Assembly: GCF_000003815.2 (NCBI RefSeq)
Contig: NC_049992.1
Coordinates: 16,009,052 to 16,073,051, forward strand
Length of the DNA stretch: 64,000 bases
Reading direction: 5' to 3'
From: Branchiostoma floridae
Taxonomy: Eukaryota > Chordata > Leptocardii > Amphioxiformes > Branchiostomatidae
Below the pieces are notes generated by a model, which saw only the letters and a list, made by a program, of their open reading frames with translations, was not told the DNA's origin and did not search any database. This document shows positions 21,522 through 59,200 of this stretch, one piece after another. The position numbers and the translations under genes are program-made. Numbering within the stretch: position 1 is the first letter of the stretch; each line of letters opens with the position of its first letter.

Positions 21522-21552
21522 ACGGGAGAGAGAGAGAGAGAGAGAGAGAGAA
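21522..21552 (+). repeat. (GA)n microsatellite
   Basis: About 14 GA units lie just outside the foldback element (about 90 bp from its left duplication). Confidence 0.95.
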
Positions 21553-21642
21553 GGGTTTATCATTTCACAACCAACTTGCGGCTCGAAAGCCGAATTATCA
21601 GGCTTGTTTACATCGAGTATCGCACCTTATTGCTACTCACAA

Positions 21643-21650
21643 GAACATAT
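21643..21650 (+). repeat. Left 8-bp target-site duplication of foldback element
   Basis: GAACATAT lies directly against the first base of the left terminal repeat. The identical octamer follows the right terminus at 30314-30321. Confidence 0.92.
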
Positions 21651-21669
21651 GGCAGATGTTTCGTGTAAG

Positions 21670-22110
21670 ACATCACGAAATCGCCGGCAAGCGCAGCCAG
21701 GCTTGCTGGGGTCTGTCGGGGTCAATGCCCGATCGCGCCGTCCATGTGTACGCTACATCATCACGATGTACGCGTCGATAACGTCACGAATTGTCGGCAA
21801 GCGCAGCCAGGGATACGGGGGCCTGTCGGGGCCCGTGCCCGATCGCGCCGTCCATGAGTACGCTACATCATCACGATGTACGCGTCGATAACGTCACGAA
21901 TTGTCGGCAAGCGCAGCCAGGGATACGGGGGCCTGTCGGGGCCCGTGCCCGATCGCGCCGTCCATGAGTACGCTACATCATCACGATGTACGCGTCGATA
22001 ACGTCACGACAATGTCGGCAAGCGCAGCCAGGGATGCGGGGCCTATCAAGGTACATGCCCGATCGCGCAGTACATGTGAAAGGCGCATCATCGCGTATAA
22101 AATGTTGTGC
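21670..22110 (+). repeat. Left outer tandem array, four 110-bp units
   Basis: Units begin with acatcacgaa or acgtcacgaa at 21670, 21781, 21891 and 22001, so the period is 110-111 bp. The units are GC- and CpG-rich (gcaagcgcagcc, cccgatcgcgccgtccatg), in contrast with the AT-rich flanks. The two middle units are nearly identical. The outermost and innermost are more diverged, which is the usual edge effect of unequal exchange. The last unit grades into the inner array. Confidence 0.93.
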
Positions 22111-22119
22111 ATGGCCGTT

Positions 22120-24200
22120 CCTACTGGTGTATTACACTATACATGTGATCTGAAATGCCCTGTAGTATTGTAGCAGGTCTTGCCGCTACAAGGGTATCGG
22201 GGCATGCCACTGCTCGTGTGCGGGATGACCTGGGCTTTCAGCCGTATAAGATATTGTGCATGGTTGATCGTTTCGACTGGTGTGACATTATACGGAAGGT
22301 CTAAAATGTCCTGTAGTATTGTAGTAAATCTTGCCGCTGTGAGGCTAGCGGGGTACACCGCTGCTCACGTACGGGGCGACCTGGCCTTTCATGCCGTAAA
22401 AGATATTGAGGTTGACCGTTTCTACTGATGTATTACATTATACGAATGGTCTGTAATGCACTGTAGTAGTGTAGTATTGTAGTAGGTCTTGCCGCTACGA
22501 GGGTAGCGGGGCACGCCACTACTGGTGTACGGGACGACCTGGCCGTTCATACCGTAAAAGATATTGAGGTTGACCGTTCCTACTGATGAATTACATTATA
22601 CGGATGGTCTGAAATGCCCTGTAGTAGTGTAGTATTGTAGTAAGTCTTTCCGCTACAAGGGTATTTGGGTACACCGCTGCTCACGTACGGGGCGACCTGG
22701 CCTTTCCTGCCGTAAAAGATATTGAGGTTGACCGTTTCTACTGATGTATCACATTATACGAATGGTCTGAAATGCTCTGTAGTAGTGTAGTATTGTAGTA
22801 GGTCTTGCCGCTACGAGGGTAGCGGGGTACACCGCTGCTCACGTACGGGGCGACCTGACCTTTTATGCCGTAAAAGATATTGTGCTTGACCATTTCTACT
22901 GGTGTATTACATTTTACAGATGGTCTGAAACGTCCTGTAGTATTGTAGTATTTTAGTAGGTTTTGCCACTACAAGGGTATCGGGGCATGCCACTTATTGT
23001 GTACGGGACTACCTGGCCTTTTAGCCGTAAACGATATTGTGGTTGCTGTTTCAACTGGTGTGACATTATACGGAAGGACTAAAATGCCCTGTAGTATTGT
23101 AGTATTGTAGTAAGTCTTACCGCTACAAGGGTATCGGGGTACACCGCTGCTCACGTACGGGGTGACCTGGCCTTTCATGCCGTAAAAGATATTGAGGTTG
23201 ACCGTTTCTACTGATATCACGATTACATTATACGAATGGTCAGAAATGCCCTGTAGTAGTGTAGTATTGTAGTAGGTCTTGCCGCTACGAGGGTAGCGGG
23301 GCACGCCACTACTAGTGTACGGGACGACCTGGCCTTTCATGCCGTAAAAGATATTGAGGTTGACCGTTTCTACTGAATCATGATGTATTACATTATACGT
23401 ATGGTCTGAAATGCCCTGTAGTAGTGTAGTATTGTAGTAGGTCTTGCCGCTACGAGGGCAGCGGGGCACGCCACTGCTGGTGTACGGGACGACCTGGCCT
23501 TTCATGCCGTGAAAGATATTGAGGTTGACCGTTTCTACTGATGTATTACATTATACGGATGGTCTGAAATGCCCTGTAGTAGTGTAGTATTGTAGTAGGT
23601 CTTGCCGCTACGAGGGTAGCGGGACACGCCACTGCTGGTGTACGGGACGACCTGGCCTTTCATGCCGTAAAAGATATTGAGGTTTACCGTTCCTACTGAT
23701 GTATTACATTATACGAATGGTCTGAAATGCCCTGTAGTAGTGTAGTATTGTAGTAAGTCTTACTGCTACAAGGGTATCGGGGTACACCGCTGCTCACGTA
23801 CGGGACGACCTGGCCTTTCATGCCGTAAAAGATATTGAGGTTGACCGTTTCTACTTAATTTATGATGTATTACATTATACGTATGGTCTGAAATGCCATG
23901 TAGTAGTGTAGTATTGTAGTAGGTCTTGCCGCTACGAGGGTAGCGGGGCACGCCACTGCTGGTGTACGGGACGATCTGGCCTTTCATGCCGTAAAAGATA
24001 TTGAGGTTGACCGTTCCTACTGATGTATTACATTATACGGATGGTCTGAAATGCCCTGTAGTAGTGTAGTATCGTAGTAGGTCTTGCCGCTACGAGGGTA
24101 GCGGGACACGCCACTGCTGGTGTACGGGACGACCTGGCCTTTCATGTATTGTAGTAGGTCTTGCCACAAGGGTGTCGGGGTATGCCACTCCTCGGAACTT
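22120..24200 (+). repeat. Left inner tandem array, about 14 units of about 158 bp
   Basis: The landmark ggtcttgccgct recurs near 22177, 22328, 22486, 22644, 22802, 22960, 23114, 23277, 23441, 23599, 23757, 23922, 24081 and, truncated, 24157. Spacings are 151-165 bp, most often 158. Two unit subtypes can be told apart: 'ctgatgtattacattatacg' and 'actggtgtgacattatacgg'. The left arm is dominated by the first. The final copy is cut short where the spacer begins. Confidence 0.93.
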
Positions 24201-26877
24201 GCTAAATGATGAGATGTACATTTTGCTGAACAACAACAGAATGTGTGAACTTCATTTTCATGTATCCTTATCTGCCTCGTTCACGACGTCAGCCAAGATA
24301 TGCCTCATGTAGCTCAACTCAATATTCCTATTCTACTCTAGCAATTTTTGATGATGCTACACACACAAAAATGACCATGAACCTGCCACCGAATGCAAAA
24401 TTTTACCTTGTATCATGATTCAAACCCGAAAAATATCCATAAAGTCTTCCTAACTGTGACGGCTCACATTAAGTGTTGTCAAATCATCATGTGTCTTGCT
24501 TTATAGCAAAGGTAAAACCAGCCATCAAGCTCACTGATTGGAGGTAAGGACCTTTGAAAACGACTGGAATTTAGAGAGATGAAAATTCTGTGTCCATTGC
24601 TTCTGTCAACTGCCTTCGGCACATGATGATGGGCACACACCATTTAAATTATCGTTGCTTAGTCTTCACTTTCTTAGTTATAAAAACAAACGAACCCATG
24701 CTAAAACTTTTCTTGTCATGTCTTTATCAGAAATATCATTGAACGGAGTGGGTTTATAAAATTCCTTCAGTGATTATGCAAATAGGATTATACTAAAAAT
24801 CATTACGATTCGTCAAACCCTTCCTGAGACATTCCCTTTCAATGTCTGACACACGGTTCCAGCAGCCGCTAGGGTGCCAAACCTAAACCACTTACTCCCG
24901 GTCTTTAAGAGCTCACAAAAATCACGACCATTGCACGTCCAGAAATCGAGATATCAAACCAGGAAGTTCCGCTGTAGAACCAAAACAAACCGCTAGGGGC
25001 CCAAAATCGAATCGTTTCAAGATCTAATAAAGACCGACCCACGTACCAAATATCAATACAGTCCATCCAGGCATTCTTGAGTAATGCTGGTCTTCTACAC
25101 ATACACACACTCATAAACACACATAACCTTATAGCGTGGGTAGACATAGCTTGAGGGTTTTAATTACATGGCTGTTTATAGTTTTACATACCTATCTCAC
25201 ACTCCAAGTATGAGCCGATTTGGTCGACTCCATCTTCCGATCGACCTCATTTTTTTCATGCAGTGACTTTTGATTATATACAGCCTTTCAATATTGAGCT
25301 AATATTTTCTGAGCTATATATGACATATATTTCAGATGTCATCTTCAGGGGTAATGTTACTACATGAACACTTCAAAATTGTATCTTCTATGGATGAAAG
25401 TGAATTTCATCTTCATTATCAATAAAATGCGATTGAGGTAAGCGAAAGGGTTTGAATTTTTTCTGTAGATATACATGTATAATTCCCACGAAATGCCTTG
25501 TCACAGAGCACGAAATCGATCGGCGGATGGGTCTTGGATCTCTAAATGACGTTTTGGACAGTAATACGCCCATCGACCGATGTTCGTATGTCTTCAAGCC
25601 CCGTTTAATGTGATCGGGTAGATAAAAATGAAAACATACAATGGGCCGAGAAAACGGTAAGAGGATGATCTCTAATAATAAACATTTTGAAGTAGAATAA
25701 ACTGGGGACCGTGCTATACGCGCTACTGCTGTTTGGCTGGTGACAAGTAAAGTTAACTCGTAACTAACCGACTGCTCTGCAATTTTGTGTTCTAAGGTCG
25801 ACACGTCAGTTAATTATAAGTCCGCCAAATTCGTTGCGAGATGCTTTGTCAGGGTGTTGTCTCTAGCTATTCGTCCTCTGTCTCAATAGATGATCCATAA
25901 TGAAGAACATCGAGAATCTAAACCAAACAACTTCAAATTCAAATGTTGTGAAAGAATATAGAACCTACTGCAACGGCGTGTCTAGATATCAACAACAGTG
26001 CGAAAACATATAATGTGTTTTGTATTTTTTTTCTTGTGAAAGCCCGTGGATAGAAATAAGACTGGTTTCCATAACCTACATATAAACTTGGAGCTGCGCA
26101 TGTACATGTGCATTCAGGTAACGGTTTATCCGTCAGACATGTTAAACTTTGCATATTACATGCATTCGTATCCCATCGACAATACTGAAAAGTGTTACTT
26201 TTCAATAAATAAAACAGAGGATTTCTATCTATGTATGGTACTCTACAGTGATACCAAAGTATCGAGCAAATGTTGAGAACATATGAAGGATTATTCCGAC
26301 ATGGTAAAAGGTCAGACGTATTTTAAACAGAACGTCAGTGATCCAAGTCAACTGTGAATTGTGTAAATCCAATGTTTTATTACACGCAGGATCCTTGGTC
26401 TTAGATATCATTATGGGGACTTAGGTTGCAAATAACAAGGTACTGTACCTATATTGAAACACTCATAGGATGAAAGAACTTTTAATACTCGAACGCAACA
26501 TGACATTCGAAGACTGCTTTCTGCCTTGTGATACAAATTGGAATCATTTTCTAATGATATGGGCAATCGTACGTTCTTGCCAGTTGGATGCTAATTTCAG
26601 TCTACATGCGAAGACATGGGACAATAACATTTAAAGATTTAAAGTACAACAGAAAAATATGACACTTTCCATTAACACAACGCTACACTTTTCTTGTTCC
26701 TCCTTAATACGCCATGCATAGAAATATAATTAATTATGGTGCGAATGTTCAACCCCTACGGTAGTCAATGCACAAACAAAACACTGATTTGGGATTATAT
26801 AATTGATGACTAGTCAAAGAGTCATTTCTTTTTACGGGCCCTAACGTAACAAAGTTCATGTCACTGACCTAATAGAA
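24201..26877. other. Foldback element spacer, no recognisable transposase
   Basis: This is about 2.7 kb of single-copy AT-rich DNA between the inverted arms. The longest open frame is 138 codons on the minus strand (25388-25804). It has no motif I recognise, no zinc finger and no DDE/D-type acidic context. Nothing like a P, hAT or other transposase core is visible in any frame. A CA-rich stretch near 25095-25125 ends a segment at 24840-25145 that resembles dispersed repeats and may be a nested insertion. An intron-split or decayed transposase cannot be excluded by eye. Confidence 0.7.
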
Positions 26878-29755
26878 TACGTACGTGAACGGTGTGCCCG
26901 CTACCCAAGGCCTACTACAATACTACAAGACATTTTAGTTCTTCTGTATAATGTCACACCAGTCGAAACGACTAACCACAATATCTTCTACGGCTGAAAA
27001 ACCAGGTTGCCCCGTACACGAGAAGTGGCATGCCCCGATACACTTGTAGCGGCAAGACCTACTACAATACTACAGGGCATTTTAGAACATCCGTATAATG
27101 TCGGCCGAGTAGAAACGATCAACCACAACATCTTCTACGGCTGAAAGGCCAGGTCGTCCCGTACACAAGAAGTGGCATGCCCCCATACCCTTGTAGAGGC
27201 AAGACATACTACAATACTACAGGGCATTTTAGTCCTTCCGTATAATGTCACACCAGTCGAAACAACCAACCACAATATCATCTACGGCTGAAAGCCAAGG
27301 TCGTCCCGTACACGAGAAGTGGCATGCCCCGATACCCTTGTAGCGGCAAGACCTACTACAATACTACACTACTACAGGGCAATTCAGACCATACGTATAA
27401 TGTAATACATCAGTAGAAACGGTCAACCTCAATATATTTTACGGCATGAAAGGCCAGGTCGCCCCGTACGTGAGTAGCGGTGAACCCCGATACCCTTGTA
27501 GCGGTAAGACTTACTACAATACTACAATACTACAGGGTATTTTAGACCATCCGTATAATGTCACACCAGTCGAAACAATCAACCACAATATCTTCTACGG
27601 CTGAAAGCCCAGGTCGTCCCGTACACGAGAAGTGGCATGCCCCGATACCCTTGTAGCGGCAAGACCTACTACAATACTACAATACTACAGGGCATTTTAG
27701 TCCTTCCGTATAATGTCACACCAGTCGAAACGGCCAACCACAATATCTTTTACGGCTGAAAGGCCAGGTCGTCCCGTAAACAAGCAGTGGCATGCCCCGA
27801 TACCCTTGTAGTGGCAAGACCTACTACAATACTACAATACTACAGGGCATTTTAGTCCATCTGTATAATGACACATCAGTCGAAACGGCCAACCACAATA
27901 TCTTCTACGGCTGAAAGGCCAGGTAGTCCCGTACACAAGCAGTGACATGCCCCGATACCCCGGTAGTGGCAAGACCTACTACAATACTACAATACTACAG
28001 GACGTTTCAGACCATTCGCATAATGTAATACACCAGTAGGAACGGTCAACCTCAATATCTTTTACGGCATAAAAGGTCAGGTCGCCCCGTACGTGAGCAG
28101 CGGTGTACCCCGCTAGCCTTACAGCGGCAAGACCTACTACAATACTACAATACTACAGGACATTTAAGACTATCCGTATAATGTCACACCAGTGGGAACG
28201 ACCGACCACAATATCTTCTACGGCTGAAAGGCCAGGTCGTCCCGCACGTGAGTAGCGGTGTACCCCGATACCCTTGTAGCGGTAAGACTTACTACAATAC
28301 TACAATACTACAGGGCATTTTAGACCATCCGTATAATGTCAACACCAGTAGGAACGGTCAAGCACAATATCTTCTACGGCTGAAAGCCCAGGTCGTCCCG
28401 TACATGAGAAGTGGCATGCCCCGATACCCTTGTAGCGGCAAGACCTACTACAATACTACAGGCCATTTTAGTCCTTCCGTATAATGTCACACCAGGCGAA
28501 ACGGCCAACCACAATATCTTCTACGGCTGAAAGACCAGGTAGTCCCGTACACAAGCAGTGGCATGCCCCGATACCCTTGTAGTGGCAAGAACTACTACAA
28601 TACTACAATACTACAGGACGTTTCAGACCATTCGTATAATGTAATACACCAGTAGGAACGGTCAAGCACAATATCTTTTACGGCATAAAAGGTCAGGTCG
28701 CCCCGTACGTGAGAAGCGGTGTACCCCGCTAGCCTTACAGTGGCAAGACCTACTACAATACTACAATACTACAGGACATTTAAGACCATCCGTATAATGT
28801 CACACCAGTGGGAACGACCGACAACAATATTTTCTACGGCTGAAAGGCCAGGTCGTCCCGCACACGAGAAGTGGCATACCCCGATACCCTCGTAGCGGCA
28901 AGACCTACTACACTACTACAGGGCATTTCTGACCATTCGTTTAATGTAATACATCAGTAGAAACGGTCAACCTCAATATCTTTTACGGCTGAAAGCCCAG
29001 GTCGTCCCGTACACGAGAAGTGGCATGCCCCGATACCCTTGTAGCGGCAAGACGTACTACGTATACGATACTACAATACTACAGGGCATTTTAGTCCTTC
29101 CTTATGATGTCACACCAGTCGAAACGGCCAACCACAATATCTTTTACGGCTGAAAGGCCAGATCGTCCCGTACACAAGCAGTGGCATGCCCCGATACCCT
29201 TGTAGCGGTAAGACTTACTACAATACTGCACTACTGCAGGGCATTTTAGTCCTTCCTAATGATGTCACACCAGTCGAAACGGCCAACCACAATATCTTTT
29301 ACGGCTGAAAGGCCAGATCGTCCCGTACACAAGCAGTGGCATGCTCCGATACCCTTGTAGTGTCAAGACCTACTACAATACTGCACTACTGCAGGGCATT
29401 TCAGACCATACGTATAATGTAATACATCAGGAGGAACGGTCAACCTCAATATCTTTTACGGCATGAAAGGCCAGGTCGCCCCGTACGTGAGCAGCGGTGT
29501 GCCCCGCTAGCCTCACAGCGGCAAGATTTACTACAATACTACAGAAAATTTTGGACCATCCGTATAATGTCACACCAGTCGAAACGATCAACCACAATAT
29601 CTTCTACGGCGGAAAGCCCAGGTCATCCCGGACACGAGCAGTGGCATGCCCCGATACCCTTGTAGCGGCAAGACCTGCTACAATACTACAGGGCATTTTA
29701 GACCATATGTATAGTGTAATACACCAGTAGGAACGGCCATGCATAACATCTTATA
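26878..29755 (-). repeat. Right inner tandem array, about 19 units of about 155 bp, inverted
   Basis: The reverse-complement landmark (agacctactacaatactac and variants) recurs about 19 times from 26910 to 29672, at 145-162 bp spacing. The sequence is the reverse complement of the left inner array. The outermost 500 bp are collinear with the left arm, including the tandem order of the two unit subtypes. The right arm has more copies of the 'caccagtcgaaac' subtype than the left. Confidence 0.93.
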
Positions 29756-29759
29756 CGCG

Positions 29760-30290
29760 ATGATGCGCCTGTCACATGTACTGCGCGATCGGGCATGCAC
29801 CTTGATAGGCCCCGCATACCTGGCTGCGCTTGCCGACAATTTCGTGACGTTATTGACGCGCATTTCGTGATGATGCAGCGTACACATAGACGGCGCGATC
29901 GGGCACGGGCCCCGACAGGCCCCCGTATCCCTGGCTGCGCTTGCCGACAATATCATGACGTTATCGACGCGCATTTCGTGATGATGTAGCGTACACATGG
30001 ACGGCGCGATCGGGCACGGGCCCCGACAGGCCCCCGTATCCCTGGCTGCGCTTGCCGACAATATCATGACGTTATCGACGAGCATTTAGTGATGATGTAG
30101 CGTACACATGGACGGCGCGATCGGGCACGGGCCCCGACAGGCCCCCTTATCCCTGGCTGCGCTTGCCGATAATTTCTTGACGTTATTGACGCGTACATCG
30201 TGATGATGTAGCGTACACATGGACGGCGCGATCGGGCATGGACCCCGACAGACCCCCGCAAGCCTGGCTGCGCTTGCCGGCGATTTCGTG
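29760..30290 (-). repeat. Right outer tandem array, five 110-bp units, inverted
   Basis: The landmark ctggctgcgcttgccg recurs near 29820, 29932, 30042, 30152 and 30265, with 110-113 bp spacing. These are reverse complements of the left outer units, one copy more than on the left. Confidence 0.93.
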
Positions 30291-30313
30291 ATGTCTTACA
30301 TGAAACATCTGCC

Positions 30314-30321
30314 GAACATAT
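30314..30321 (+). repeat. Right 8-bp target-site duplication of foldback element
   Basis: GAACATAT directly follows the terminal CATCTGCC of the right arm and exactly matches the left copy. Confidence 0.92.
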
Positions 30322-30724
30322 TGTACAATTATAACATAAACAATACAATAAGACGTGTAGCATAAATATCATAATGGATAAATATTGCAGATTCGAGTGC
30401 AATGTCTAAAAGACAAGTTAAAATAGGGTTAAAACTATACATATTAAAAGACTAATCATGCTAAAACTGGTTGACTTGACCTATATACAACTTTAGCTAA
30501 AAACAGATTGTCCTGACTCCTGGTGGAGTTTATGCGCAGAGTCTACAGTTCGTTCGATGATTTGATCATTGCCGGTATAGCGCTGGTTAGGTACAGATGT
30601 GTCATCAGCAGTAACACAAATTAAAGTCATCAGTAGCGCGTATGTTCAAGTGGCAATCCGCCAAAATGATCCCAAGCATGGAGTTAAATCCTATGATACA
30701 TGTGATCGCGAAAGTACCTCTTAC

Positions 30725-53200: not shown

Positions 53201-56200
53201 TGATGCCTCATCAATGGCACAAGAGGGACGACCAGGTCTGGGAGCTGTTTCCACAGACTTCCAGCCACGTTTGAATTCAGGATGCCAGCGTTTTACAAGG
53301 TCATATGATGGGGCATCATCACCATAAGTTTCATTTATTTCATCAAAAGTCTTCTTTGGTGTGCGTCCTTTCAAATACAAAAACCGGATCACTGCGCGAC
53401 ACTCAACTGGTTCCATTTCACACCTGGTCCATTTCGCACCTGACTAAGTTCAAACACCAGTAAATCAGAAACCACAATTAGTTCAGAGCTGTCTTTTGCA
53501 ACATAACCCATAGAGATATGAATTATTACACATACAAAATTTCATCTAGATCAGACAACTGGAAGTGGGTCAGGACCATTACTTATTGCACGCCCCTCGT
53601 AGCTATAGACGTGCAAAAGTTAGGTCTGTGTCATAGAACCAGTCACTGCCACGCCGCACGTCTGCAAAACTGGTGCATTTTGCTGAAGCGCAGTTATGAC
53701 AACTATATAGACACAGACACAGGTACTAGCAAGAAATGATTCTAGCTGCAGTGCATGATAGAACCAGTTTTGCCCTGAGGAATGTCACAGATGGTCACCT
53801 AAACATTGGTCTTGAATAAAACACTTTGTTGTGTGGAAAGAAAATTCAATTTGTTATTCATCTCTTGATACATCACTGGGTTCTTTGACCCCTTATTCAG
53901 TTTTATTACTTTGGTAAGTCACAAGACCAAGGAATGTATTTCAATGTAGTGTGAAATAAATCTACAAATTTGAAGAAAGTTATTATTATTATTTCTTTAT
54001 TTCAGGCTCTCACTGGCCCATATGACAGAGGGACATACATGAAAAACAAAAAATATATACAACATTTCAAGACAAACTGACAATACTATGGCTATGTGTA
54101 GAGGCGGCGCCAGAGATTGGTGAAAAATGAGTTCTTGTAAAAAGAGTCGGACCTAAGTACGGACTGTATAATGGTATTAGTAGAATTGAAAAGCCTATGT
54201 ACAAAGGAGTGGCACTGTTTACGCCATCTGGCGTCAAAGGTATCGGTATGATTGCACACGAACATTTCACTTGCGCTGCAAGATCTAGGGAAACTCATAA
54301 TGATACGAAAACAATTATTGTAGGCAATTCGACATTTCGACAGAACACATGAGCGAAAAGAATTCCACAACTGCCCACCAAATAGTTGAGAACAATGGGA
54401 TGTGAACAGTTGTTTCTTAATAGCAGGTGAACAAAGACAAAATTTTCGAATTATAGTATTAGCACGACAGTACAGACCCCTTAGCTGGGCAAGAATACAG
54501 TCATCATCACTCAGTCTGTCATTAATAGCAATTCCAAGATATATAAATGATGTCACAAATCTCAAACACTCTCCATACAATTTGATCGACGGGAGCGGAT
54601 GTAGAAGTGGCAAACTAGCGCTCGGGAAGTACATGCAGCAATGTCTTGTTTACATTGAATAACAAATCATTTTCTAAACCAAAGTCCTCACAAGTACTTA
54701 CAAGTTTTTGCAGAGACTTAAGGCTAGGACATAACAAACACATGTCGTCAGCATAAAAAAGATGGTTCACAAGAAAACCTCCTATATAGCAACCTACTTT
54801 AGTACTACTGAGTCTCGAACTTAAATCATCTATATATGCATTGAATAGTAGCGGGGATAGCAGACTCCCTTGCCTTACACCATTTGATACATAAAAGCAG
54901 GGAGACAAAACATTGTTCCATCTAATACACATTGTTTGGTTCTGGTACCAGTAAACCAGAAACCTCACCAAATACACCGGGACCTTTCTGTCAAGTAGTT
55001 TTTTAAATAGGGTCCAATGGTTTACCCTATCAAAAGCCTTGGAGGCGTCCAAAAAACAAGCAAAAACTGGAGAGCCGAGACCCCGGTAGTACTCAATTGT
55101 CTGTTTTAAAGTAAATACACACATGTCAAGACCATGTCCTCGTTTGAAACCGAACTGATGAGCAGTGGTTTGAAGATATGGCTCTAGCCTGTTCAATAAA
55201 ACAGCCTCCAGAACTTTGGATAATGCTGATGCAATTGCTATTGGTCTATAGTTATCACTATCAGAAATATTACCAGTTTTGTTTTTAACAACCGGAATGA
55301 TGGTAGTATCTAACATACTTTTCGGAATGAAGTTATGGACAAGCCCGGCTGAAAACAATAGTGATATGCATATGCTAAGCTTAGGCCCCGCATATTTAAG
55401 GTGTTCATTACTGATTCCGTCAGACCCTACCGCTTTTCCATTGGGTAAGTTTCGAATGATATCATATACTTCCACAGGAGAGATTTGCATCCCCGAATCA
55501 AATTCAAAAGGACAACCTGTCGACAAATCAGACATAACAGCAGGTCTATGTACCTCACTATTGACAGAGTTCAGCAGTTTTTCAAAATGACTCCTCCACA
55601 TGTCTGCGATCTGCTCAGTCCCAGAGCAACCATCTATAGTATTAGGTATTACAGAATGAGAGGATTTAGTACTACGGACCTTTGTCCAGAATTCTCTAGT
55701 ATGGCCGGCATTGAAACTTCTTGCAGTCGAGTCAGCTCTTGCCCTGTTTTCCTCCTGTCTACACTGTCTTAGGGCATACTTAAACTTTGCCCTGGCTTGA
55801 TTCATTAAGGAAAAAATTGGACCAGATCGAGGGCGGCCACTTTCCCTCCAAAGAATGTAGGCCTCACGTGCAGCCGTATGCAAATCCTTAACAACCTCAT
55901 TCCATCCGGGGACAGGTGTGAAGGAATTGCAACACGTTCTTTGAGTTATAGTGGAATTCGCAGAATCTTTTAGAATGGCAATTAATTGGCAGGTAAACAG
56001 GTTGAGGGCATTAGTATGCGCTTGATCCTGACAATTCGGATCCTTACAAATCATTGCGTCTAGTGGAATTTCCACGTTTGACAGAAAACTGTCCACAGAT
56101 AAACGATACATGTCGACTTGGCCTGGCATCGCCCTGGCCCAGTCAGTGATTTTGCGAGGAATCTCGGAGTATGCAGCCTTAGCTATGGCTGGGAAATTTG

Positions 56201-59200
56201 CATCTAAAGAGATACAGAGTGGAAAGTGATCAGAGGAGACATAATCATGCAACACCTGAATATTGTTGATGTTTTGGTGAGCCGTGTCACTTGCCAGACA
56301 GTGATCGATCCATGATGTGGAAGCATGGACATCACTGAGGTAAGTGTAAGAATCGGCCGGAAGAAGTTCCCTGTCTGAGCAGTGTAATCCAGTTTCCTCG
56401 CAAAACGTCTGTAACAATACACCAAATCTACTTGTAGGTGAGGCATTAAAATCGCCCAAGATTACCGTAGCATACGAATTATAATCCTCCAAGAGTGCCT
56501 CAAGTTTACCCAGCTTCTCAAGAAATGAGTCAGTATTTGCTGGCATATCACAAGGCATATATACACATACACAGAGTAATTGACATCCATTCAAATCTAT
56601 TCTAACAGCAATGAGACTATCATCATCAATGTCAACAGGAGATATGACAGAAGATAGGGTCTTTCTCCACATGATCCCCACTCCCCCATACGGGCGTCCT
56701 TGTAGCACCCCTGCTTCAAGATTTACTGGGGATTTCCCGGAGGCCATAAACTCAGGACTAATACTGCTTAGAAAAGGGATATCATCAGGCAGAAGCCAGT
56801 GTTCTTGCAACATAATAATGTCATTTGATTCACATAGACTTTTGATTGTTCCAACTGAGTTCTTGACAGAACGGCAGTTATATGATGCAATCCGCAGTTT
56901 CTGTTTCAAGTCCATGGTTAAGAAGTGGAAGAGCGTCGCCTACTGTGAAAGCGGCGCACTAGGATCCCACATGGCCAGAAAGATGGGGACAGGACTTCCG
57001 ACACAGCATTGCAGTCAACAGAGACGCGGAACGAAGAATACCCATCGTATTTTGTGGTCAGTTTAGAACAGGACACTGTGAATTTCTGCGACAAGTTATC
57101 AGTCAAGTACCTTTCAACATCCTGAGTCAGTGTGTCCGGTTCAAGGCGCGTCACAAAGATCTCCGCTGGTCTTGACTTAACCGCAGACAGACTGGACGAC
57201 ACCGCCGTACCCACCACTGCCCTAGACCTCTGCTTCTTTCTCTGCACCAGGCGGAAGCCCTCAGAGTCAAGGTCACTGTGGCCACCAGCTGAGGTGGACT
57301 GCGGTCGGGGAACAGCCCTAGAGCCACTCGAGTAGCCACGACGTCGGGATGCCTGCGATGACTTTGTGGCAAGCGCCCTCTCCACCTGCCGACCAGGGTC
57401 GCCCGCGTGCAGGGACTTAGGGATAGTCTCCGACGGGCAGGTGTCAGACACGGCATTGGCGTAGGATTCCTTCGGCCTGGCGAGAGTCGACGTTGCCGGC
57501 GGAGCAGAACTCGACGCTGCCGGCGGAGCAGAACACGACGCTGCCGGCGGAGCAGAACACGACGCTGCCGGCGGAGCACAGCTCAGCCTGTTTTTCAATT
57601 CCCAGATCTCTTTCCTGAGGGCCACAAGCTCAGTCTGGACTCTAACCGAATCTATGGAGCAGTCCCTAATCAGTTTCATCTCCTGCCTCACGATCTGAAG
57701 CTCTTGCATGCAAACCGAGATGTCTACATGTTCCAGATTCACAGCGGGGAGGTGGAGAGTTGCGGACACGAAAGTAGGTAACGACGGAGGAGCAGTAGAA
57801 TGCAAAACTCGCTGAATATCCTCCATATTGGCGGTAGACTTGTCTGCTCCCTTTCGCTTTATGTAGCGTTCGTCTGGCTTACATGTATCAAATACAAGTC
57901 TCTTAGCCGTCTCTATTTCCTCTTCCATGTACGTCTCGGTACACAACTTCGTAATGATGTCGAACGGAAGAGTGTCCATCTTGTTAACAGTAAAACATAA
58001 CAGATCGTTGATGATAACATCTTTACATACCGCTTCGGATCCAGACCCACTAGGGGGGAAACGCTTGTCTGAACAGCACTGGCAGAGAACAAGATCCCCC
58101 TGACAGTAAAGTAAATTATGAAAAAATGAAAGAATAAAAAAATAATGATTAAACTCTAAAAAAAATTTTAATTCATCTTAGAATCGTACATTTGAATTTT
58201 TAAAACCTTTTTTGACCATTGTGTTGTAAAAAACCTCACCACAGAAAGCGCTTGGCTCCAGGGTCCATACCAGTGGATGGCTCGTCCATCAGAACAACTT
58301 GAGTGTTTCCCAGCATGCTCATCGCAAAACTCAGCTAGAAGAAAAAACACTAATATTCAGAAAAGTGTTACAGAAAACTTCTCTGGCATTCTACAACTAA
58401 AATGGTAAGTTCTTGCAGATAATATAATGGCACTGTCTGAAGGAAGAAGAAACACACTTTTTAACTTTCTCTGCTGGGTACCATTTTGCAAACAACTTTG
58501 TATTGGTGAGAAGCTAAAACCGCAGAGAAAAGAATTATTATAATATAGTACATTGTACATGTACATCAAGCAACTTAAAATATAGGAATAGCAACAAAAG
58601 GTTTTCCTTACACACTAAGTTAAAATTGCATATGAGATAAACGTCTTTTACAATGATACAATATGAATTGAGTCAAATATGGGAAAGTAGAAAAGTTTAA
58701 CTACTAAAGCCTACCTTTCTTTTGGTGCCACCAGACAAAGCTGAACTTCTCTTCTGTGCATGTTCCTCTATCTCCATAGACTCAATAAAGCTGTTTTGGG
58801 GATAAACAACACCTTAGTATACTACAAAGCTCTCAAATTGCATTGTGTGCAATCAAAGACATTCATAATTCTTTATTCTGTATATACTGACAGTCTGCAC
58901 TCTTTGTTCTCACATTATCACGACATGTTTCACCAAACACATTCAATGCTGTAAACAATTTATATCACATGGAAGAGTACATTCTGGGGCCCACTATGCA
59001 TACATCCAATATACGATACACTTGGATGGTAACCATTGTGTTGTGAAGAATGAAAATAGCCAAAATTTACCATCGAACATAAAGTTTATAGTCTGTTCAT
59101 CATTCCTGTTTCATGTGAAAGCTTTTCTTCCCTGCATATACCTCGTATCTTCTACTTTTATTAGCTCTTCTGAAGTCAGGTTACGACACTCCATATGCAA

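Follow-up and report, generated by a model that had tools for sequence, protein, structure and literature searches.

A foldback DNA transposon of Branchiostoma floridae and a probable 50-kb parent with a candidate transposase

A 64,000-nucleotide stretch of the Branchiostoma floridae genome (contig NC_049992.1, here C14:16009052-16073051; hereafter the window, whose coordinates are used unless a contig is named) contains a real foldback DNA transposon, with its element proper at 21651-30313 (8,663 bp) between identical GAACATAT octamers at 21643..21650 and 30314..30321, both on the plus strand. The left arm, read on the plus strand, opens with the terminus (GGCAGATGTTTCGTGTAAGACA; 21651..21672) and continues through an outer array of 3.7 units of 110 bp (21673..22076) into an inner array of 12.5 units of 158 bp (22161..24146). 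The right arm, on the minus strand, holds an inner array of 18.0 units of 155 bp (26913..29690), an outer array of 4.7 units of 111 bp (29773..30291) and the right terminus (30292..30313), all arrays being delimited with Tandem Repeats Finder. The arms are inverted copies with 91% identity across the outer 448 bp and carry unequal numbers of units, and the copy contains no N. An earlier reading made from the letters alone (the sequence-only reading) had described a complete 8.66-kb foldback transposon with an exact 8-bp duplication and an outer 110-bp and inner 158-bp array in each arm, all of which holds; its count of two mismatches between the termini does not, as three positions (13, 57 and 74) of the terminal 75 bp are mismatched.

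Between the arms lies a 2.7-kb spacer (24147..26912, plus strand) that recurs in at least 13 other copies at 87-96% identity. The genome searches covered 513.4 Mb in 431 contigs, and DNA searches scored the best 40 candidates each, so that copy numbers are lower bounds. The two longest open reading frames (ORFs) of the spacer, 141 and 127 amino acids from stop to stop, have no Pfam match. One part of it (24790-25125) resembles at least 23 further places at about 75-77% identity, and we therefore regard that part as a separate, older dispersed repeat.

When the flanks were joined with one octamer, the resulting sequence was found uninterrupted elsewhere, over 395 of 395 bases at 98% identity on C17 and over 393 of 393 bases at 98% on C3 (best 40 of 67 candidates scored). 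The element therefore sits inside a dispersed repeat, whose left part occupies 21528..21650 (joined-flank query 128-250) and whose right part occupies 30314..30593 (query 243-522), both on the plus strand. The sequence-only reading had proposed a search for empty sites in other haplotypes; the empty sites present here are paralogous ones of this repeat, the best at 98%.

With up to three mismatches allowed, a 31-bp end pattern has 87 occurrences in 513 Mb, compared with none for a reversed-pattern control. Fifty of these termini form 25 paired elements of 300 bp to 50,661 bp, three are inner ends and 34 are single; one additional single terminus (C3:5466319), from another search (104 places, control 12) otherwise unused for counts, brings the singles to 35. 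The octamers flanking the 25 pairs are identical in 13, differ by one mismatch in six, by two in two and by three to seven in four, whereas left and right flanks deliberately mis-paired were identical in 0 of 600 cases and one mismatch apart in 2 of 600. A multi-copy family with matching flanks had been anticipated from the sequence alone and is supported by these figures. All features of the foldback class are present, namely inverted arms of tandem repeats that vary in length, a fixed 8-bp target-site duplication (TSD) and copies with a variable middle. Recent movement, also proposed earlier, is weakly supported, the spacers of other copies differing from that of the window copy by about 4-13% and the arms being unequal in repeat number.

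Two copies have an extra internal end (C13:13558314-13580265 and C5:1649644-1657873), and their alternative inner pairings (C13:13562812/13576724 and C5:1649644/1656509), which stand outside the 25, show seven mismatches each. In the C13 copy, which spans 22 kb, the outer octamers are identical (TCGTTTCT) and the extra inner left end is also preceded by TCGTTTCT, a pattern like that of a partial duplication of the element together with its flank. Separately, the foldback ends at C6:26479252 and C234:109260 have the same octamer to their right (TTATTCTG), and C234 may therefore represent this part of C6 in another haplotype.

Copies of the family have common ends and differ in their inner arrays, and thus fall into subfamilies. 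Those ending in TTTC have inner arrays of 155 or 158 bp, except C173:65901 with 93 bp, and those ending in TTCC have arrays of 104 bp (C1:34098535, C3:20432196, C12:2527830 and C12:17569750) or, in C5:25598110, of 152 bp. The 104- and 152-bp units are clearly alike. With the 158-bp unit each has in common just a short TGTAG-rich box spanning about 30 bp (from 300 shuffles, p about 0.003 and 0.01 without correction), and most other pairs of units are unlike. The first 19 bases of the terminus, with up to four substitutions, occur at ends only in the 16 sequences scanned, one such end being the extra inner end of the C5:1649644 copy, and the roughly 30 bases that follow them recur two to seven times per arm in 155/158-type copies with both arms read. 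At the small extreme, the 300-bp copy C1:24724856 is nearly a pure palindrome. Most of L053 (2.8 kb of which is N) and of L054, two copies of about 10 kb that belong to another subfamily, was read and contains no ORF longer than 163 amino acids.

The 50,661-bp copy lies on C12 (17473452-17524112). Both of its ends are exactly the 31-bp pattern, and its flanking octamers match at seven of eight positions (CAGAGGTT/CAGAGGTG). Positions 1-941 and 1142-2217 of the window spacer are present in its right internal region (C12:17516855-17519085), and 2.2 kb of its left core is present at 97% identity in a copy on C15 (E_C15), with 0.75 kb also present in a copy on C235 (E_C235) at 98.7%. E_C235 follows the C12 copy at 98.7% up to 17481165 and resumes at 17512729 with 99-100% identity across a clean junction with one extra base, so that it is without 31,563 bp of the C12 interior; beyond 17512729 the match extends for about 2.75 kb and is broken solely by the insertion of a 508-bp repeat. 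E_C15 follows the C12 copy at 97% up to 17482626 and continues at spacer position 448 (about C12:17517302, calculated), with about 34.7 kb absent. It retains 1.46 kb of the block missing from E_C235, which in turn retains right-hand core missing from E_C15. The differing breakpoints and complementary remnants indicate repeated loss of the middle from a larger ancestor, and we read E_C235 and E_C15 as internal deletions, of about 31.6 kb and about 34.7 kb, of the C12 copy.

The 508-bp repeat within the C235 core (L009 5808-6315) has at least 37 close copies at 95-99% identity and is flanked by a 12-bp duplication, its empty site being visible in the C12 copy. An ORF of 1,211 amino acids in the C15 copy was judged by eye only to encode a nested non-long-terminal-repeat (non-LTR) retrotransposon protein and was set aside.

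Between the deletion points, and therefore within the block missing from E_C235, the C12 copy contains an ORF of 952 codons without stops (C12:17494464-17497319, minus strand). A relative on C17 is 62% identical and has an open frame of 811 codons. Across the 798 codons that align, the two differ at codon positions 1, 2 and 3 with frequencies of 0.28, 0.19 and 0.56 and have a non-synonymous divergence (dN) of 0.28, the comparison yielding no synonymous value (dS), which is probably saturated. Position 2 is thus the most conserved and position 3 the least, which is the pattern of a selected coding sequence. The two proteins have in common the motifs IDHTF, LDQCC, DLFH, RNEALH, ADGSCLF and MHFDS and a Cys-rich tail, and both keep D277, D349, H374 and the E of RNEALH. 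ADGSCLF and MHFDS may represent the OTU signature with its catalytic C and H; Pfam gave OTU an E-value of 0.022, below the cut-off, and two unrelated families weaker values (0.12 and 0.23). From these motifs we infer that the protein is a candidate D-D-E-type transposase with an OTU-like part. PDB sequence searches returned nothing or three weak unrelated matches (E 0.09-0.29), and among viral contigs five pattern matches to the first 440 amino acids gave no confirmed relative.

Taken together, we consider it fairly probable that the window copy descends, as a non-autonomous form, from a giant foldback transposon whose candidate transposase is unclassified. Deletion is the most likely origin of this non-autonomous copy, and the 50-kb C12 copy is its probable parent. 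The active source transposase expected by the sequence-only reading would accordingly have a counterpart in one copy with an intact candidate ORF, although its activity and its link to the family ends are deduced. Under this proposal, the window copy would have arisen from the large parent by deletion of its left and middle parts, in the manner of E_C235 and E_C15, and would have been moved in trans by a transposase from that parent, for which the 952-amino-acid ORF is the candidate. The protein could recognise the conserved terminus (the GGCAGATGTTTC end), perhaps aided by a CACGAAAT-containing stretch recurring in the outer units, cut at the ends and join them to a target staggered by 8 bp. 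Inner arrays may grow, shrink and be replaced via unequal exchange while the ends stay conserved, and such exchange would explain both their unequal length in the two arms and their different sequence from one subfamily to the next.

Several observations weigh against this proposal. Direct reading of the C12 copy covered all but about 16.0 kb (17475052-17477999, 17488000-17489999 and 17512851-17523899), part of these intervals being covered by search matches alone, and two short stretches of the copy are N. The ORF is found in a single family copy: among the 24 genome places that resemble it (39 matches merged by hand), C12 alone lies inside a pair of ends, and tblastn detected no relic in 14 elements (the window copy and 13 others, nine of them with N gaps). 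In the 6.3 kb readable around the C17 relative, neither foldback arms nor matching ends are present, an N gap adjoining the gene. The ORF could be a passenger in the C12 copy. Furthermore, no transposase model in Pfam matched it, and an hhalign comparison with two MULEs of the same genome, using two-sequence profiles, aligned both D and the FH positions, but at a probability of 0.7%. The idea of additional binding sites in the arms is weakened by the recurring outer-unit motif itself, which in its 158-type wording (up to six substitutions) is absent from L030 and present just once in each arm of L029. The outer units of the three types visibly share no more than the shorter piece CACGAAAT.

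The alternative that survives best is that the family was moved by a conventional transposase of MULE, P or hAT type that is missing from the assembly, lies in a gap or has ends that have diverged, with the C12 copy carrying the 952-amino-acid ORF along as an unrelated gene or nested transposon. We regard this as unlikely; in its favour, the ORF was seen in one copy only and the genome contains at least 27 places with a MULE domain, one of which (L057) has inverted repeats of about 320-350 bp. Among the matches listed there were 27 places for MULE, three for P (PF21787 only), three for Merlin, 12 for KDZ and 33 for the hAT dimerisation domain, and none of these 78 is enclosed by one of the 25 pairs or lies up to 60 kb inward from any of the 35 single termini, which argues against such an enzyme. 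Nor did reading of the P-type (L031, L032), MULE (L055-L057) and Merlin (L058) loci reveal a family-like pair of ends with matching flanks. At L056, inward-facing 10-mers one mismatch from GGCAGATGTT do flank a MULE ORF (positions 47 and 5761; C11:20225546 and 20231260), as this alternative would have it, but they differ from each other after the first seven bases and their flanking octamers are unmatched; they are probably due to chance. The 8-bp TSD agrees with the length for hAT and not with the about 9 bp of MULEs, and no inverted termini enclosing the 952-amino-acid ORF were found in the surrounding 14 kb.

Two side observations arose from these searches. At L057 (853-4823; C9:6718852-6722822) a MULE-type ORF of 590 amino acids lies between the inverted repeats of about 320-350 bp (84% identical), the aligned part of which starts with GGACGACTCGGACC. 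MULE transposases were undetected in Branchiostoma floridae by the authors of PMC6446971, and the presence at L057 of a MULE-type ORF with ends differs from this statement. On C6, at about 14.9-28.1 Mb, lie 15 of the 24 places resembling the 952-amino-acid ORF, and 11 of the 33 hAT places are on C6, which may hold a transposon-rich region.

A second alternative, that the C12 object represents two nearby foldbacks or stray arms around host DNA and that the 8.7-kb form is complete and ancestral, is in our judgement very improbable. In its favour, copies with an extra internal end do exist on C13 and C5, but the far ends of the C12 copy are bounded by octamers matching at seven of eight positions, and E_C235 and E_C15, on other contigs, join C12 pieces from both sides at different points, which implies that the interior pieces travelled as one unit. 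The chance that the structure is an assembly artefact or a simple palindromic satellite is negligible: palindromes and arrays are hard to assemble and nine of the 13 other family elements retrieved have N gaps, but the ends, the TSDs (at most one mismatch in 19 of the 25 elements), the empty sites and the absence of N from the window copy together exclude an assembly artefact as its origin.

A derivative of a giant parent thus being the preferred reading, what is new is the probable parent of 50 kb, together with its candidate transposase, which is unclassified. Foldbacks are often viewed as orphan arms without an enzyme, for example Tetris (PMC4079207), and with a likely parent and deletion derivatives in one genome, it becomes directly testable whether foldbacks arise when the middle is lost. 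If the 952-amino-acid protein is the enzyme, it would represent a kind of transposase that no Pfam model covers, one that includes a protease-like part and acts on ends 50 kb apart. More broadly, and with greater reserve, the family may belong to a giant (about 50 kb) foldback lineage whose transposase, D-D-E-like with an OTU-type protease and a Cys-rich tail, would fit no described superfamily, and which would seed deletion derivatives whose inner arrays are swapped for new minisatellites; we consider this possible, though somewhat doubtful as a whole. The variation of the arm arrays between fixed ends offers a possible route from transposon to minisatellite.

Elsewhere in the window, a non-LTR retrotransposon occupies 54092-58177 on the minus strand, with an endonuclease/reverse-transcriptase ORF of 774 amino acids (Pfam RVT_1 and Exo_endo_phos) and an upstream ORF of 419 amino acids that has no Pfam match and contains a 24-bp repeat.

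Among titles and abstract openings, we found no work on foldback elements in amphioxus and none combining OTU with long terminal inverted repeats (TIRs), the OTU/CXC matches listed being Ginger transposons and unrelated topics. By description, the FB/NOF elements of Drosophila are like the window family in having arms of tandem repeats and, in rare composite copies, a middle that encodes protein; their TSD is 9 bp long as opposed to 8 bp. Teratorn and Polintons likewise span tens of kilobases between inverted ends, as does the C12 copy, but encode many genes, some of viral type, whereas the C12 copy has one long ORF in the parts read (PMC6431247). Galileo, a foldback of the P superfamily, resembles the window family in having tandem repeats within its TIRs, which are described as containing additional transposase-binding sites (PMC4079207); unlike Galileo, the window family has no P-type match between its ends, PF21787 occurring at three genome places, none of them linked. 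Rehavkus, a MULE, shares inverted ends with a minisatellite, but has a 9-bp TSD, a PHD finger and listed hosts among arthropods and annelids, and the candidate ORF has no Pfam MULE match (PMC6446971). Tm1, a Mutator/foldback element of Meloidogyne, is similar in its composite foldback TIRs and in being mostly non-autonomous with a single putatively autonomous copy; that copy, Tm1-A, measures 2.5 kb, encodes a MULE/FLYWCH protein and has a 9-bp TSD, compared with 50.66 kb, no MULE match and an 8-bp TSD here (PMC3169594). Also similar by description is Tetris of Drosophila virilis, with long TIRs made of a flanking domain and tandem TIR-220 repeats and with a variable non-coding middle (PMC4079207). 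Its arms thus already have more than one domain, which tempers the claim of the sequence-only reading that no described element is known with this end sequence and two different arrays per arm. The TSDs of Tetris are 8-10 bp, compared with 8 bp in the window family, and its authors found no autonomous copy, whereas the amphioxus family has a candidate parent of 50 kb (PMC4079207).
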